A stretch of 64,000 nt of DNA from Phycisphaerae bacterium (GCA_017999985.1 JAGNKU010000002.1:186001-250000), one strand, 5' to 3'. Positions 5,035 to 11,607 are shown, counted from the stretch's first letter. The notes: generated by a model not told the origin, from the sequence alone. A program made the numbers and translations.

Positions 5035-6157
5035 ATGGCCACCAAGGTATATGAAGACCCCGCCGGAGCCCTCCGGGAGCTCACATCCCGGATCCACGCG
5101 ATCCGGGACTCTCTTTGACCTGCCCGCGAAGACCGCGCGGTTGACCGAGCTCGAGACCCGCATGCAGCAGCCGGGCTTCTGGGACAGCCAGGAAGCCGCC
5201 CAGAAGGTCGTGGCGGAGCTGAAGGCCCTGCGTGCCAAGATCGACCCGGTGCAGGAACTGCTGCGCCGGGCGGACGACGCGCACGTGCTCGTCGAGCTGG
5301 CCGCGGAGCAGGCCGATGACGAATCGCGTGCCGAGGTGCAACGCGAGCTGGAGCAGATGACCGCTCGCACCGACCAGGTCGAGCTGCTGACGCTGCTGTC
5401 CGGCGAGAACGATGCCCGCAACTGCTTCTTCAGCCTACAGGCGGGGGCGGGCGGCGTGGACGCGTGCGACTTCGCCGAGATGCTGTTGCGCATGTACCTG
5501 ATGTACTTCGAGTCGGCCGGCTTTCGCGCGTCCGAGGTCGATCGTCGCGTCGGCGAAGAGGCCGGCATCCAGTCGGTCACGCTCTACGTCGAAGGCCCCT
5601 ACGCGTACGGATACCTATCGTGTGAGGTCGGCGTGCACCGGCTTGTGCGGCTGAGCCCGTTCAATGCCCAGAGCAAGCGCCAGACGTCCTTTGTCGCGGT
5701 CGATTGCCTGCCCGAGTTCGAAGAATCCAAGATCGACATTGCCGAGGGGGACCTCGACATCGAAACCTTCCGGCGCGCATCGGGGGCCGGTGGGCAGAAT
5801 GTCAACAAGGTCGCGACGGCGGTGCGCATTCGGCACAAGCCGACCGGCATCATGGTCGAGTGCGTGAACGAGCGCAGCCAGGCGCAGAACAAGCGCGTGG
5901 CTCTGAGCATGCTGCAATCCAAGCTGGAGCAGATCGAGGAGGCGAAGCACGACGCCGAGCTGGCGAAGATCTACAGCGAGAAAGGCGACATTGCCTGGGG
6001 CAACCAGATCCGCAGCTACGTCATCCACGGCTCGACGATCCACGTCAAGGACCACCGCACGAACCTCGCGATCGGCGACGTGCAGCGCGTCCTCAACGGC
6101 GACATCCAGCCCTACATCGACGCCCGCCTGCGCCAGCGGCTCAAGGGCGGCAAGTAG
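5035..6157 (+). CDS. prfB: Peptide chain release factor 2, with programmed +1 frameshift
   Basis: RF2 reads UGA and UAA stop codons and triggers peptide release. The frame starting at ATG 5035 runs [11 protein letters not shown]... AIRDSL and meets TGA at 5116-5118 in the context CTT TGA C, the classic prfB frameshift site. A +1 shift continues at GAC 5117 with [13 protein letters not shown], exactly where RF2 proteins continue. The product is 373 residues. Family hallmarks are the stop-codon-recognising tripeptide in RLSPFNAQ and the catalytic GGQ in GAGGQNVNK. Low RF2 favours the shift, giving autoregulation as in other bacteria. The upstream CGGGA is only a weak internal Shine-Dalgarno. 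The 3' end overlaps the convergent gene by 17 nt. Confidence 0.95.
5113..5119 (+). promoter_or_regulatory. prfB: prfB programmed +1 frameshift site CTTTGAC
   Basis: CTT (5113-5115) is a slippery Leu codon before the in-frame TGA (5116-5118) and C. The protein homology continues only in the +1 frame after this point. Confidence 0.9.
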
Positions 6158-6656
6158 CCGGGGTGCTGCGAACCACGTTCGTCGATATGAATGCGCGGCC
6201 GCATTCCGGACAGCGCGGTTCGGTCAGGCCCGCCAGGGGATAGCCGCAGTGGATACATTCGCCGCGCCGTCGGCGCCGGGCGCGCCGCCGCGGTCCGCGG
6301 CGATAGGCGATGACCGCCGCACTCAGCACGCCGCCGGCCAGGAACCAGAACGGCAGCCCGACACCGAACGCCCCCGTGCCGCCATAGGTCACTTGGCGGA
6401 AATAGAACCACGCCAATTCCTGCCGGGATTCACTCGGCACGTTCAACTGCGGCGCGCTGTAGACCATGTGCAAGATGCCGCTGACGAGCGCGGCTCGGAG
6501 CTGCGGGGCGCGTTCGTCGCCGGTGATCCAGATGGTGTCCACCGGCACGCCTTGCCAATAGCTGATGCCACCCAGGACCAGGATGGCCAATCCGCCGATC
6601 AGGAAGCCCGCGGCGACGAGCCATTCGCGCGTGCTGCGCAGCCTGTCCGACTTCAT
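6141..6656 (-). CDS. Membrane protein with C-terminal zinc ribbon, planctomycete type
   Basis: This 171-residue protein has a membrane helix at about residues 13-34 ([17 protein letters not shown]), a loop of about 70 residues, and a second helix near 108-125 ([15 protein letters not shown]). A basic stretch [10 protein letters not shown] follows, then a zinc ribbon [11 protein letters not shown]...CPECGRAF. Short two-helix proteins with a cytoplasmic CxxCGYxLxGL tail are common in planctomycetes, and their function is unknown. It lies 9 nt after the radical SAM gene and probably ends that operon. Its 3' end overlaps prfB tail to tail. Confidence 0.75.
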
Positions 6657-6665
6657 GTCATCGCC

Positions 6666-7799
6666 CTACTTCTTCAGAAGCGTGTCTTCCAATAGCGACA
6701 GCACCGGATACGCCGCGTTGTAGTGCTTGTGCAGGAACAGCGGGTCACGTTTGCGATAGAGCACATTGCCCACGCGGTCCGCAATCGGCGTCAGCATCTG
6801 CTCGTAGCGGCACAGCACCGGCGAAATCCCGTTGATCGTTCCGGTCGTCTGCCAGTTCAGGCAGCCGCAGGTGTTGTGGCAGCGCTCTTTGAGGGTGCAT
6901 TCGCGGCAGAAGGCTTTCTCCGCCTCGGACTCGTCGTGAATACGCCGGCGGGCGTCGTCGTCGATGCCGCGCGACACGTGGCCGATGCACCAGCGGCTGT
7001 CCGGCCCGGCCCGCGGGAACTGCACACAGGGAAACAGGTAGCCCTGCGGATCGACCGAGAGTTGTCGCTCGGCGAGTTCGCAGCGCTCCTTGCGCCAGCA
7101 ATGCTGGTTGATGTGCGAGGAGAGCTTGACCTCGAACGGGCTGAGGTAGAACTTGCGGCCGGCCCGCGTCCATTGCACGTACAGCTTGCCGAGTCGCTTG
7201 AACTGCTTGCCGAGCACGCGGAAATCTGCTTCCTGCCAGTCCGCCGCGTAGTTGAGCGACACGATCAGGTAGCGGCAGCCAAGATCCAGCAGAAACGCGA
7301 CGGAATCCGCCAGATAGCGCGCCGTGTCCGGGTTCACGGCCATCAGCACGCTCGAATATGGCCGGACGGACAGCAGCATCTTCAGGCGTTCCACGAGCAC
7401 GTCAAACGTCGGTCCGCCGCCCGCGAGCCGACGATGCTGGTCGTGGGCTTGGCGGACCCCGTCGAGGCTCATGGCGATGAGGATGTCGTTGCGAACGGCG
7501 AATTCGAGGAAGGCGGCGTCGAGCAGCAGGCCGTTCGTGGTGATCTTGAAGTGGAAGCGGCCGGCGCGGTTGTGCTCCAGGTGCCGGGCATACGCGACGA
7601 GCGACGCGATGCGGTCTTTGCAGAGCAGCGGCTCCCCGCCGAAGAAGACGACGCCGCACGAGTCTGACGTGAGGCGCGCGGCGAGGTCGAGCGCCTGGCG
7701 GCCAATCTCGTCACTCATCGGCGCACCGTCATGCGGCGGCGCGTAGCAGTACGAGCAGCGCATATTGCAGGCGGTGGTCAGATGGAGCGTCAGGTGCAT
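6666..7799 (-). CDS. Radical SAM/SPASM protein (peptide- or protein-modifying type)
   Basis: This 377-residue enzyme carries the radical SAM cluster motif CNMRCSYC at residues 11-18, FFGGEPLL near 55, and a TTNG motif. The C-terminal SPASM-type region has many cysteines, including a CRECTLKERC...CGC cluster near residues 293-309 and a late Cys in PVLCRYEQ. SPASM enzymes typically hold two auxiliary 4Fe-4S clusters and modify ribosomal peptides or proteins (sactipeptide, PQQ and anSME-like groups). It starts 1 nt after the stop of the downstream copy of two tandem lipoprotein-like paralogues. Strong translational coupling suggests those proteins as its substrate or partner. The reaction is unknown. 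Confidence 0.92.
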   Translation of the reverse strand: MHLTLHLTTACNMRCSYCYAPPHDGAPMSDEIGRQALDLAARLTSDSCGVVFFGGEPLLCKDRIASLVAYARHLEHNRAGRFHFKITTNGLLLDAAFLEFAVRNDILIAMSLDGVRQAHDQHRRLAGGGPTFDVLVERLKMLLSVRPYSSVLMAVNPDTARYLADSVAFLLDLGCRYLIVSLNYAADWQEADFRVLGKQFKRLGKLYVQWTRAGRKFYLSPFEVKLSSHINQHCWRKERCELAERQLSVDPQGYLFPCVQFPRAGPDSRWCIGHVSRGIDDDARRRIHDESEAEKAFCRECTLKERCHNTCGCLNWQTTGTINGISPVLCRYEQMLTPIADRVGNVLYRKRDPLFLHKHYNAAYPVLSLLEDTLLKK

Positions 7800-7800
7800 A

Positions 7801-8430
7801 TCAGATCACACCCTGGGCCTTGAGCCAGTCGATGAAGTCCTTAACCTGTTCGCGGAGCTGGTTTTCCGCCTTCGCTTGATACTTAGCAACATCGCCAGTC
7901 GGCACGTTCGGCGCGCGCAGCGCGCGAAAATGGACGTTGGGTGCCTGCGCTGCGACACGCGCGGTCAACCGCGCATCCGTATCGCCAGTCCCGGCGGGTA
8001 AGCGCGCCTCCAAGCGCCGCAGGTCGTCGCGGGCAACGTATTCGAGCGCCCACTTCCATTTGGGATCCGAGAGGTCCACGACGAAGGGCTCGGCTTCGCC
8101 GGACGCCGAGGCGAGCGTCACGCCCGGCAAGGCAGCTTCCTCGACGATCGCGACGACGCCACGGTGACCGAGTTCGTCCCGGATGATCTGCCTGGCGCTG
8201 GATTCTGAAAAGGCTTCAACGACCGCCGGCGCGCCGAAGACACACCCGGACGTCGTCCCCAGCGTCGTGACACTGAGCAGCACTCCCGCGGCGGTCGCGA
8301 TCTCACGGCGCCACAGCCACGCCGACGGTACGTACTGTTGTAGCAGGTCCGGTTTTGCCAGCACCGCCGTTCGAGTCGGATAGCACGGCGCGGGATAGGA
8401 CCGCAGCACACGCGGACCACGCTTGGCCAT
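7801..8430 (-). CDS. Lipoprotein-like protein, paralogue 2, paired with the radical SAM enzyme
   Basis: I do not recognise this family. The 209-residue product has an N-terminal region with CYPTR and VPSAWLWRREI, a hydrophobic stretch with a lipobox-like TTSGC, then VVEAFSES, LPGVTLASASG and FVVDLSDPKWKWALEYV. It ends in VKDFIDWLKAQGVI. It matches the upstream gene over its whole length, at about half to two thirds identity by eye, and the two are equally long. The start at 8430 overlaps the upstream stop as ATGA; the longer start at 8457 would break the symmetry. It ends 1 nt before the radical SAM start. A candidate substrate or partner of that enzyme. Confidence 0.8.
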   Translation of the reverse strand: MAKRGPRVLRSYPAPCYPTRTAVLAKPDLLQQYVPSAWLWRREIATAAGVLLSVTTLGTTSGCVFGAPAVVEAFSESSARQIIRDELGHRGVVAIVEEAALPGVTLASASGEAEPFVVDLSDPKWKWALEYVARDDLRRLEARLPAGTGDTDARLTARVAAQAPNVHFRALRAPNVPTGDVAKYQAKAENQLREQVKDFIDWLKAQGVI

Positions 8431-9059
8431 CAGATCACTCCCTGAGCCTTCAGCCAATCGACGAAGTCCTTGACCTGCGCGCGCAGTTGACTCTCGGCTT
8501 CGGGCTGCGGCGTGTTGATGTCGCCAGTGGTCGAGTAGGGTGCACGCAGAGCTTGAAAGTGGACGTCTTCCGCCTGCGCAGCGACATAGTCTGTCAACCT
8601 TGCCGCGAGGTCACCAGTGCCGGTCGGCAGTCCCGCTTCGAGCGCGATGTAATCGTCATACGTGACGTACTCCAGGGCCCACTTCCATTCCGGATCCGAC
8701 AGATCGACGACCAGGGGCTCGGCCCCGCCGGACGCCGTGGCCAGTGTGACACCCGGCAGCTCCGCCTCGGAGGCAATCGCCGCCAAGCCCTGGAGCCGCA
8801 GCTCATCCCGGATGATCTCCAGCGCGGTCGCCTCCGAAAAAGCCTCCACCGCCGCCGGTATGCCAGGGGTCACGAGCGGAGGACAACCCATGGTTCCGAC
8901 CACGAGCAGCGCCCCCGCCGCCGCCGCGATCTCGCGCTGCGCGAGCCATGCCGAAGGCACATGCTGCCGCAAGAGCGTCGGGTCGGCGGCAATAGAGAGC
9001 TTGGTCGGGTAGGCGGGCACCCCGTAGCGCCGCACCGGCTGAAATGTCAGATTCCCCAT
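8430..9059 (-). CDS. Lipoprotein-like protein, paralogue 1, first gene of the radical SAM operon
   Basis: This 209-residue paralogue of the next gene shares YPTK/R, LLRQHVPSAWLAQREIA, the hydrophobic segment ending in a lipobox-like GTMGC, LPGVTLATASGG, VVDLSDPEWKWALEYV, VHFQALRAP and the C-terminal DFVDWLKAQGVI. About 40 residues precede the hydrophobic segment, which is long for a lipoprotein signal peptide. Membrane anchoring is therefore inference. The start at 9059 has GGAGGT about 7 nt upstream. A minus-strand TATAAT about 50 nt upstream makes this the likely first gene of a four-gene operon. The function is unknown. Confidence 0.8.
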   Translation of the reverse strand: MGNLTFQPVRRYGVPAYPTKLSIAADPTLLRQHVPSAWLAQREIAAAAGALLVVGTMGCPPLVTPGIPAAVEAFSEATALEIIRDELRLQGLAAIASEAELPGVTLATASGGAEPLVVDLSDPEWKWALEYVTYDDYIALEAGLPTGTGDLAARLTDYVAAQAEDVHFQALRAPYSTTGDINTPQPEAESQLRAQVKDFVDWLKAQGVI

Positions 9060-9108
9060 GGCACGACCTCCGCCGCCGAGTTAGACGCACTCAGCGGGCA
9101 GTCGTTCC

Positions 9109-9139
9109 ATTATACGAGAACACCAGGAGGCGGATTCAA
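9109..9139 (-). promoter_or_regulatory. Probable promoter of the radical SAM/lipoprotein operon
   Basis: The minus strand has a perfect -10 TATAAT (9114-9109). A TTGAAT -35-like box (9139-9134) stands 19 nt upstream; reading it as TGAATC gives an 18-nt spacer. The leader to ATG 9059 would be about 40 nt. Confidence 0.5.
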
Positions 9140-9172
9140 TAAGGCGGGAGGTTGGTGCAGCTCGGAATCTCT

Positions 9173-9316
9173 ACCCCCACCCTGCCCTCCCCGCAACAGG
9201 GGGAGGGGTTGAACGCGATCACCCTCACCCTGCCCTCCCCCTGCAAGGGGGAGGGGTTGAAGGCAGTCACCCCCACCCTGTCCGCCTCCTGGGAGAGGGA
9301 AAGGTTGGAGCGTCGT
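9173..9316. repeat. Three tandem copies of a 48-bp GC hairpin unit
   Basis: Units begin at 9173, 9221 and 9269. Each runs ACCC(C/T)CACCCTG, then a C-rich arm, a short loop, a G-rich arm and GGTTG(A/G)A. Units 1 and 2 are nearly identical and unit 3 is degenerate. The C-rich and G-rich arms (CCCTCCCC/GGGGAGGGG) can pair. Single relatives lie at 4972, 36951, 42496, 46543 and 52718. The array sits between the 5' end of the radical SAM operon and the 3' end of the next minus-strand gene. Confidence 0.85.
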
Positions 9317-11607
9317 CAATTCGGTCCCGCGGCCTCGGCGCGAGCACTGCCGGCCGTTGCGGACTCGAAACGCTTGAGTGCCTTCTCCATATCCGCGAGA
9401 CCCGCGCCGCCGTTACGCTGTTTCGACAGCTCGATCGCCTTCTTCTCCAGCGCGATGGCCTGCTCCACGTTGCCCGTCTCGAACTCGGCCAGCGCCAGCG
9501 TGTCGAGATATGCCCAGTTTTCGTGCTTGGTCAGCTCGTTCGAACGGCGCGCGGCATGCAGGGCCACCTCGGTGTACTCCTTGCCGTACTGCTCTTCCGT
9601 CAGGAGCGCCCACGCAAAGCTGTTGAGCTCGTCGGCATCATCGTTCAACGCCGCGCACAGCCCCTCCGCCGCCACCAGCGCCGCCGCGTGGTCCTTCTGC
9701 CCCGTCGCGAGCACATCGAATTTCTTCCGGAGCAGACCGGCGTCCGCCGGCGACCGTGCGAGCCGCCGGTCCAACAGCGTCAACGCGCGGCCGGGGTCCC
9801 GGCCCTTCATCGCCCGCGTCAGCTCGCGATCACCCGTTTGCCGCTGCCGTTCTTCGGTCAGCTTCTGGTTCACGAGGTTACCGATGTTCGGCACACCCGT
9901 CACCGCCGCCGAGCAGCGCAGCAGCCGGTCCGAATGGTCCACCGTCACCAGTGCCGCTGTGTTCGTCAGCGTCGCGATGATCGGCTCCAGTTCGGCCGCT
10001 TCGTCCGGCGGCATGAACGGCCGCGCAATCGCCGCACAACGCGCGGCATGCGCCAGCACCGCCAGCGTCGTTTGCGGACCCACGTGCGAGAGCGGCGCCG
10101 CGAAGTCCGCATCGTCCAGGATCGACTTGCCGCCGCGCACCGGCTCCAGCGCCCGTGCGAGCGCCTGCTCGTTCGACGCAATCAGCAGCCGATGCCCGAC
10201 CGTCGTCACGTAGACCGTCACGCCCTTCTCGAAGCGGTAGCTCCGCGCCGCCACGCCACCCACCTGGCGCGGTTCACCTTCAATCGTGGGCCCGCCAGAC
10301 GCGAGGCTCGCGATGCCAAGCATCTCCGTCCACAGGGCCTGCGACTTAGCCGGATCATTCACGGTGATGGCAGCCACGATGTCTGGCACGACGTCCTTGC
10401 TCGGCGCACCGGCCGTGGGCGGCAGCACGTACACGGCAACGCCATTGATGTTCGCGAACACTTCGCGGCCAAGGTCGAGCGCGGTGACGACCGGCGGCGT
10501 CGCCGGCTGACCCGGCGGGACATCGCCGTACTTCGTCGGTGCTTCGTTCATGGCCAGGGCCAGTAGAGCGGCCGCACCCGACGGCACGGAGCGCAGCGTC
10601 TCTCTGTCGATCGCCGGGCGACGCAGGAAGTTGTAGACGAGATTGCGGTGCCCCTCGTCCAGCCGCAGCGTTACCTCGAGCACGAATCCCTCGTCGCTCA
10701 GATCCAGCCGGCCGGTGAGCGCGCGGAAACTCTTCGGATCAAGCAGCCCTTGCGCGATCGCGAACTCACGCGACTGCGACGCGCCGGCCGCCATCATGAC
10801 ATCCATCAGCGGCAGGAGCGGCTTCGGGTTCACGCAGAAGAAGAGAAGCTCGCCGCGGCGGTCTTTGAGCACGTCGGCCAGCTGTGGATCGGTGGCGAGC
10901 GACTCGGCCTGGTCATCCTTCATCCGGTCGAGCACGCCCTCGATCTCGATCGGACTGGAGCCGGCGATGACGAGCCGCGAAGTCAGCGTGATGTACACGT
11001 CTTCCAGTTCGTACGTCGCGTAGCCGGCGATCGGCTCGACGACGCTCGCGCCGGCGGGCAGGCCGGTTTCGATGAGGCCGCGCACGACGTCCATGTCGCC
11101 GGGGTGGAGTACGGCAACACCGGACGGGCGCTGCGCGCTCGGGTCAAAGCCGGTGACGGCCAGCGCGGCGCCGCGCATGCCCAGCACGGCGTCGACGAGT
11201 GCCGGGCTGATCGCGAGGCGATTCTGACCGACCACGGGTTTCTGGCCGTCCTTCGCAAGCAGGCCGAGCTGATCCAGCAGCTTGCGGACGCGCTCGCCGG
11301 GCCGATTGAGCTCGACGTATCCGAGCACGTTCGGCGGCATGAGCCGCGCGAAATCGGTGGTAGCCAGCTCCTCGCGGCAACTGGCGAGGCGCACACGCGC
11401 GGCGGCCTGCAGATTGGCCTCGGCCCCCTTCGCCTGCACGACTTCGGCGTACAGCTTCGCAGCGCCGGCGTAGTCGCGCTGGTCACGTTCGAGGTAGTAG
11501 GCGCGGTAGAACTTGTCGGCGACGTCTGCGGCGCGGGTGGCAGCGGTGCTCGTGAACAGCAGCAGCGCAGCGATCATGAGTCGAGAGATGAGACCAGCGG
11601 GCATCAT
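9316..11607 (-). CDS. Large secreted protein with TPR-like ends (planctomycetal DUF3352-like)
   Basis: This 763-residue protein has a signal peptide (LMIAALLLFTSTAATRAA) followed by a TPR-like segment (YRAYYLERDQRDYAGAAKLYAEV). A long central part has alternating strand and helix character, with phrases such as VLGYVELNRPGERV, FFCVNPKPLLPLM and VDHSDRLLRCSAAV. TPR-like repeats near the C-terminus include NWAYLDTLALAEFETGNVEQ. The central part resembles the DUF3352-type envelope proteins of planctomycetes and has no known enzyme motif. The start is set by a GGAGG 8 nt upstream. The gene at 13669-15954 has a similar plan and is probably a distant relative. A periplasmic or outer-envelope location is inferred. 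Confidence 0.75.
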   Translation of the reverse strand: MMPAGLISRLMIAALLLFTSTAATRAADVADKFYRAYYLERDQRDYAGAAKLYAEVVQAKGAEANLQAAARVRLASCREELATTDFARLMPPNVLGYVELNRPGERVRKLLDQLGLLAKDGQKPVVGQNRLAISPALVDAVLGMRGAALAVTGFDPSAQRPSGVAVLHPGDMDVVRGLIETGLPAGASVVEPIAGYATYELEDVYITLTSRLVIAGSSPIEIEGVLDRMKDDQAESLATDPQLADVLKDRRGELLFFCVNPKPLLPLMDVMMAAGASQSREFAIAQGLLDPKSFRALTGRLDLSDEGFVLEVTLRLDEGHRNLVYNFLRRPAIDRETLRSVPSGAAALLALAMNEAPTKYGDVPPGQPATPPVVTALDLGREVFANINGVAVYVLPPTAGAPSKDVVPDIVAAITVNDPAKSQALWTEMLGIASLASGGPTIEGEPRQVGGVAARSYRFEKGVTVYVTTVGHRLLIASNEQALARALEPVRGGKSILDDADFAAPLSHVGPQTTLAVLAHAARCAAIARPFMPPDEAAELEPIIATLTNTAALVTVDHSDRLLRCSAAVTGVPNIGNLVNQKLTEERQRQTGDRELTRAMKGRDPGRALTLLDRRLARSPADAGLLRKKFDVLATGQKDHAAALVAAEGLCAALNDDADELNSFAWALLTEEQYGKEYTEVALHAARRSNELTKHENWAYLDTLALAEFETGNVEQAIALEKKAIELSKQRNGGAGLADMEKALKRFESATAGSARAEAAGPN

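Follow-up and report, generated by a model that had tools for sequence, protein, structure and literature searches.

The window, a stretch of 64,000 nucleotides from a Phycisphaerae bacterium (GCA_017999985.1 JAGNKU010000002.1:186001-250000), carries on its minus strand, from 9059 down to 6666, three closely packed genes, two of them encoding paralogous proteins of 209 amino acids and the third a radical S-adenosylmethionine (SAM)/SPASM enzyme of 377 amino acids. We read these genes as a compact protein-maturation unit, in which the enzyme most likely modifies the pair of paralogues. The three genes are as follows.

8430..9059 (8433-9059 without the stop), minus strand: candidate substrate paralogue 1 (P0010), 209 amino acids plus stop, from the open reading frame and homology

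7801..8430 (7804-8430 without the stop), minus strand: candidate substrate paralogue 2 (P0011), 209 amino acids plus stop, from the open reading frame

6666..7799, minus strand: radical SAM/SPASM maturase (P0009), 377 amino acids plus stop, from Pfam, NCBIfam and conserved cysteines

An earlier note on this DNA had described two paralogous genes of 209 codons each, and the open reading frames bear this out, as does a pairwise alignment that runs without gaps over 201 residues at 64% identity (E 4e-88). The ATGA overlap that it placed between the paralogues was misread: the stop of the first and the start of the second form TGATG, an overlap of 1 nucleotide. Its spacings were correct, with the radical SAM gene starting 1 nucleotide past paralogue 2 and a zinc-ribbon/transmembrane gene (6141-6656) following 9 nucleotides past the radical SAM gene.

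The enzyme matches the Pfam family Radical_SAM with an E-value of 2.3e-16, and among solved structures its closest relative in sequence is 5wgg (E 2.5e-31). The nearest curated NCBIfam model is PapB (NF047865), which P0009 matches at 215 bits where the cut-off is 340, and three of its relatives that were scanned score 186-236 bits with the same model. By the curated cut-off P0009 is outside PapB, and its sequence assigns it to a PapB-like but separate clade. The model TIGR04133 (rSAM_w_lipo) was absent when the NCBIfam matches of P0009 were listed down to the 25th best, and when the window's genome was searched with it at E 1e-20 only another locus matched, at 95 bits. Two groups of cysteines define the enzyme.

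7746..7769, minus strand: radical SAM CxxxCxxC cluster motif (C11, C15, C18), from the clade alignment

6810..7082, minus strand: SPASM cysteines C240-C330 (CX12GX4C ... CX2CX5CX3CXCX16C), from the clade alignment

Because these cluster and SPASM cysteines are all present and are conserved over 29 clade sequences, P0009 looks intact and functional. Each of the two paralogues begins with a putative leader, which is followed by a hydrophobic anchor.

9006..9026, minus strand: YxxPxYP leader signature of paralogue 1 (Y12-P18, YGVPAYP), common to substrates at other loci

8377..8397, minus strand: YxxPxYP leader signature of paralogue 2 (Y12-P18, YPAPCYP), from the same motif comparison

8886..8930, minus strand: hydrophobic anchor of paralogue 1 (residues 44-58), from a hydropathy scan, mean Kyte-Doolittle 1.97

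8257..8301, minus strand: hydrophobic anchor of paralogue 2 (residues 44-58), from a hydropathy scan, mean Kyte-Doolittle 1.73

The pairing of such proteins with this enzyme recurs in other genomes. A first scan found homologues of the 209-amino-acid proteins adjoining a similar enzyme in one contig labelled Victivallales and one labelled Clostridia. Whole-genome searches that started from the enzyme, made at strict thresholds, then recovered it from 17 of 392 genomes of the window's phylum, from 2 of 195 genomes of the phylum of the Victivallales-labelled genome, and from 9 of 245 Clostridia genomes, which have 10 loci between them, giving 29 clade-enzyme loci (17, 2 and 10). At 26 of the 29 a leader-bearing gene with a hydrophobic anchor is adjacent or lies one to two genes off, either upstream or downstream. 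The other three loci (G145, G602 and G037) all touch contig ends: the contig of G145 starts about 60 bases ahead of the enzyme, that of G602 holds only the C-terminus of the substrate, and in G037 tandem leader-bearing genes lie on another contig, which ends in what appears to be the same HEAT-repeat gene as precedes the enzyme. When the search started from the substrate, the enzyme was adjacent in 5 of 6 genomes of the window's phylum (in one of the five, G131, as a fragment only, at a contig end), with the sixth lacking both leader and enzyme, and all 6 matching Clostridia genomes also had the enzyme. The neighbourhood of the homologues had been proposed as a means of refuting the pairing, and by these counts it is not refuted. 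Leader-bearing copies on G763:C8 and G685:C5 are away from the enzyme, yet in genomes having a clade enzyme. In viral contigs, 18 pattern matches included no relative. At one Clostridia locus (L020), a clostripain-like (C11) peptidase-like gene is present at 9014-10213, two genes downstream of the enzyme.

It could be argued that the enzyme and the anchored proteins are neighbours by chance and have no functional link. Against this, the adjacency at 26 of 29 loci has no exception with intact flanks, comes in two gene orders and extends to divergent types of substrate, and we consider chance co-location extremely improbable.

The leader gives a second line of evidence. Substrates at these loci carry an N-terminal YxxPxYP or a close variant of it, then a hydrophobic stretch, and in the long relatives of the window pair (group A) the signature continues as P...VPxxW. 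Within the first 60 residues, 17 of 39 substrates carry Y..P.YP and 28 of 39 carry P.YP, compared with 0 and 3, respectively, of 1363 control open reading frames, the controls coming from the fetched loci and not from a whole genome, and the signature having been chosen from the same sequences in which it was counted, which makes these figures a contrast and not an independent test. The leader tracks the clade enzyme, since the leaderless copies in two genomes, G025 and G011, do not adjoin a clade enzyme. In G025 a homologue has the same domain behind an ordinary lipoprotein signal, without the leader, and that genome has no clade enzyme at the search threshold used; the leaderless gene is located at L034 (G025:C2), at about 6680-7400 on the minus strand. 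In G011 leader-bearing copies stand beside the clade enzyme on one contig, and on the minus strand of G011:C152 (L118) two leaderless lipoprotein copies stand beside an enzyme that matches TIGR04133 at 357 bits (cut-off 425). The G011 copies beside the two different enzymes also have different linkers between anchor and domain, YGVAPAYGVP versus CGTPGCVRQLPP, making this genome a natural comparison of one domain with two different enzymes and two different linkers. On these sequences the leader marks the predicted substrates of the clade enzyme and is a searchable signature for them. The coupling of enzyme and substrate that the earlier note proposed is strongly supported by recurrence in distant bacteria together with this co-variation of leader and enzyme, and a pairing that depends on recognition of the leader seems to us probable.

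Four main types of substrate were found beside clade enzymes, and scans of the substrates with Pfam and NCBIfam gave no family above cut-off. Group A consists of the long relatives of the window pair, group B of the substrates of L036, L073, L074 and L075, group C of those of L078-L083, which have a twin-arginine-like DRRxFL and glycine-containing repeats, and group D of the short, repeat-bearing substrates of L091 and L092. In group C the DRRxFL precedes the anchor, hinting at twin-arginine export following folding or modification. At L036 and L074 a similar gene for a small multi-pass membrane protein lies beside the group B substrate, which suggests a third component there.

Anchoring of the substrates in the membrane is supported as a general property by their sequences; lipidation is not general. 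The window pair had been described as membrane-anchored and lipoprotein-like, with a conserved lipobox-like cysteine. The anchor at residues 44-58, predicted with moderate confidence, agrees with the first part of that description, and a cysteine does follow the hydrophobic stretch, at Cys59 in copy 1 and at the different position of Cys63 in copy 2, where the loose lipobox core of the PS00013 type is matched by GALLVVGTMGC and SVTTLGTTSGC. The strict lipobox [LVI][ASTVI][GAS]C has no match in either window protein, and an extension of about 40 residues puts both cysteines unusually far from the N-terminus. Several relatives fit the strict lipobox, and groups B and C are mostly without the cysteine. 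Lipidation is supported by sequence for many relatives and would be borderline for the window pair.

Beyond the anchor, both proteins end in a predicted folded domain.

8433..8852, minus strand: C-terminal domain of paralogue 1 (residues 70-209), predicted PD-(D/E)XK-like, from the AlphaFold2 model and structural alignment

7804..8211, minus strand: C-terminal domain of paralogue 2 (residues 74-209), from alignment to paralogue 1 and homologues

AlphaFold2, run with five sequences, modelled the window protein with a predicted template modelling score of 0.60 and a longer homologue with one of 0.63. The best structural alignment of the window model was to I-Bth0305I (3r3p_B; Z 8.0, root mean square deviation 3.4, 95 aligned), followed among the other top rows by NGO0050 (6.7), BpuSI, PvuRts1I, AbaSI and Vsr, with nuclease-like entries frequent. 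The model of the longer homologue gave weaker structural matches than the window model, and Foldseek alone gave no significant match for it. With moderate confidence, we read these models as a probable PD-(D/E)XK-like fold of the domain. Of the catalytic D...(D/E)xK, D119 and E130 are present and valine occupies the lysine position (E130-Y-V). Because the catalytic lysine is thus lost and the glutamate is replaced in the domain of L084, nuclease activity appears unlikely.

The segments WKWALEYV and DWLKAQGVI had been put forward as recognition or modification sites. In the model they correspond to a central strand and the last helix of the folded domain, and their equivalents are kept in homologues with neither leader nor clade enzyme; we found no support for the suggestion and disfavour these segments as sites of modification. 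A broader version of the idea puts the modification in the folded domain instead of the linker, perhaps near Asp119 or Glu130 or in the C-terminal helix, where it would tune binding or a nuclease-like activity. This helix does belong, with Asp119 and Asp136, to the most conserved parts of group A, and the predicted fold resembles PD-(D/E)XK proteins. The domain is, however, kept in homologues without the clade enzyme, and it cannot be the general target because it is absent from the group C and group D substrates of the same clade. We judge modification of the domain to be improbable.

What changes along with the leader and the enzyme is the segment between anchor and domain, and for this reason we infer that this linker is what the enzyme modifies. 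Two short regions of the window correspond to it.

8853..8885, minus strand: linker of paralogue 1, Cys59 to residue 69, proposed modification region, placed by correspondence with the HGEGRGxxGC...PP segment

8212..8244, minus strand: linker of paralogue 2, Cys63 (SGCVFGAP) to residue 73, proposed modification region, placed with MAFFT

The MAFFT alignment brings the GC of the paralogue 2 linker onto the GC of HGEGRGxxGC in long homologues. Most long relatives have HGEGRGxxGC, the leader copies in G011 have CGTPGC/CPGC where the leaderless ones have YGVAPAYGVP, and G025 has APVFDHGIGYASTP. The linker between anchor and domain is the likeliest site of modification, a placement that could fall either way.

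As to the reaction, the thioether chemistry of the nearest curated family is an obvious candidate. PapB joins Cys to Asp/Glu and accepts Cys-Xn-Asp with n = 0-6 (PMC9413430). In the window pair, a ranthipeptide-type (PapB/QhpD) thioether would connect the single linker cysteine (C59 or C63) to an Asp/Glu side chain, and the protein would be cross-linked and not lipidated. The 215-bit PapB score fits this proposal, as does the GxxGC in the linker of many long homologues, which has Glu/Asp nearby. Set against these points, the enzyme scores well under the PapB cut-off, and CX3[DE] is absent from both window proteins. Moreover, five substrates beside clade enzymes (L073, L074, L078, L079 and L082) have no cysteine at all, and because of these we reject the PapB thioether as the general chemistry of the clade. 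For the window pair itself we hold a thioether to be unlikely.

A chemistry that needs no cysteine, namely epimerisation or C-C bond formation on aliphatic residues or the backbone, could instead act on the Val/Ile/Leu/Gly of linker or repeat segments that are of the [V/A]x[L/I/V]xG type. Groups C and D are often without cysteine, and the motif is observed 23 times against 2.5 in shuffled sequences and 10 times against 0.5 (groups C and D), although it was derived from the same sequences as were scored. TvgB, a radical SAM enzyme, converts valine in TVGG repeats to cyclopropylglycine (PMC9062424), although it comes from another type of gene cluster and serves as precedent only. The enrichment is mild in long group A proteins and absent from the window pair and group B, and as a universal target the motif was rejected. 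Aliphatic or backbone chemistry is a possibility we take seriously and rate at somewhat less than an even chance.

Taken together, our reading of the unit is that the PapB-like-clade enzyme would recognise the N-terminal leader of about 40 residues (YxxPxYP ... P ... VPxxW) of both anchored proteins and would install a radical modification in the cytoplasm, prior to export, most likely in the short stretch that joins anchor and domain. The modified protein would then be inserted or lipidated at its anchor, so that the PD-(D/E)XK-like, probably non-catalytic domain would be displayed in the periplasm or on the surface of the cell. Modification in the cytoplasm ahead of export has a precedent in QhpD/QhpC (PMC7876137). 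Besides the shared origin of the leader signature and its counts, several points weigh against this reading. Group D and some other substrates keep only a variant of the leader signature, and remoter members of the clade without substrates may exist beyond the strict search thresholds. The proteins of the window pair are short and divergent and have a linker motif without HGEGRG; this linker is short and hard to align, so that the site there is the weakest part of the proposal. Linkers also vary among substrate groups, with group B lacking any glycine motif. Finally, lipidation of the window pair is borderline, and the cysteine-free substrates cannot be lipidated. With these points in mind we propose, tentatively and as rather less than an even bet, a trans-phylum class of radical SAM maturation in which a single clade of enzymes, with YxxPxYP as its guide, makes a cysteine-independent modification in linkers or repeats of envelope-anchored proteins. 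If this is true, the juxtamembrane segment itself would be chemically altered.

The zinc-ribbon gene next to the enzyme is an incidental neighbour. It had been counted as a fourth member of the operon; its protein has 46 further matches within the window's genome, and in the other loci read the enzyme was not seen to have such a gene as a neighbour, so we rejected it as part of the system. Its 3' end overlaps a convergent prfB-like gene (ending at 6157) by 17 bases. Two short elements precede paralogue 1.

9067..9071, minus strand: GGAGG ribosome-binding site ahead of paralogue 1, from sequence

9109..9114, minus strand: TATAAT, a possible -10 element, from sequence

The TATAAT had been noted before the first gene and is present, but a promoter scan gave no sigma-70-type -35/-10 pair and hence no -35 partner for it. 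By eye, the palindromic segments CCCTCCCC...GGGGAGGGG are repeated at about 9170-9310 of the window, in the intergenic DNA that precedes paralogue 1.

Small secreted peptides are the best-known setting of radical SAM chemistry, and here it is predicted to serve the maturation of envelope proteins. The wider family is undescribed in the family libraries (Pfam, NCBIfam) and literature searched, and no account of the system was found in the literature on TIGR04133/TIGR04134, on lipoproteins with ranthipeptides or on lipoboxes with radical SAM enzymes. Because the product stays anchored and no peptidase or exporter is consistently adjacent in the loci read, this compact, recurrent unit suggests a structural or surface role rather than a diffusible natural product.

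Several known systems resemble parts of this unit. PapB/PapA is the closest on the enzyme side, being the best curated match, of SPASM type and leader-guided, but the score is 215 against 340 bits and the substrates here are anchored proteins of about 100-400 amino acids, mostly without CX3D/E and some of them cysteine-free. TIGR04133, named for its lipoprotein partner, likewise sets a radical SAM/SPASM enzyme beside a lipoprotein, and in G011 a TIGR04133-like enzyme adjoins leaderless homologues of the domain of the window pair; the enzyme family differs, however, and its partners there have a YG-rich linker and no YxxPxYP leader. The PD-(D/E)XK/Vsr-like nucleases (I-Bth0305I, NGO0050, PvuRts1I, AbaSI and Vsr) share the predicted fold of the substrate domain, which differs in having valine for the catalytic lysine, a glutamate that is not universal, and a membrane anchor. 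In TvgB/TvgA, which makes poly-cyclopropylglycine, a radical SAM enzyme acts on aliphatic residues in glycine-rich repeats and needs no cysteine (PMC9062424), but it does so on a repeat peptide accompanied by oxidase, peptidase and transporter genes. In QhpD/QhpC (TIGR03906), of quinohemoprotein amine dehydrogenase, the radical SAM enzyme acts on a leader-bearing protein before it reaches the periplasm (PMC7876137), as we propose for the window pair, although protease, transporter and oxygenase genes are dedicated to that system and its product has multiple Cys-Asp/Glu bonds, features that were not seen in the system of the window.

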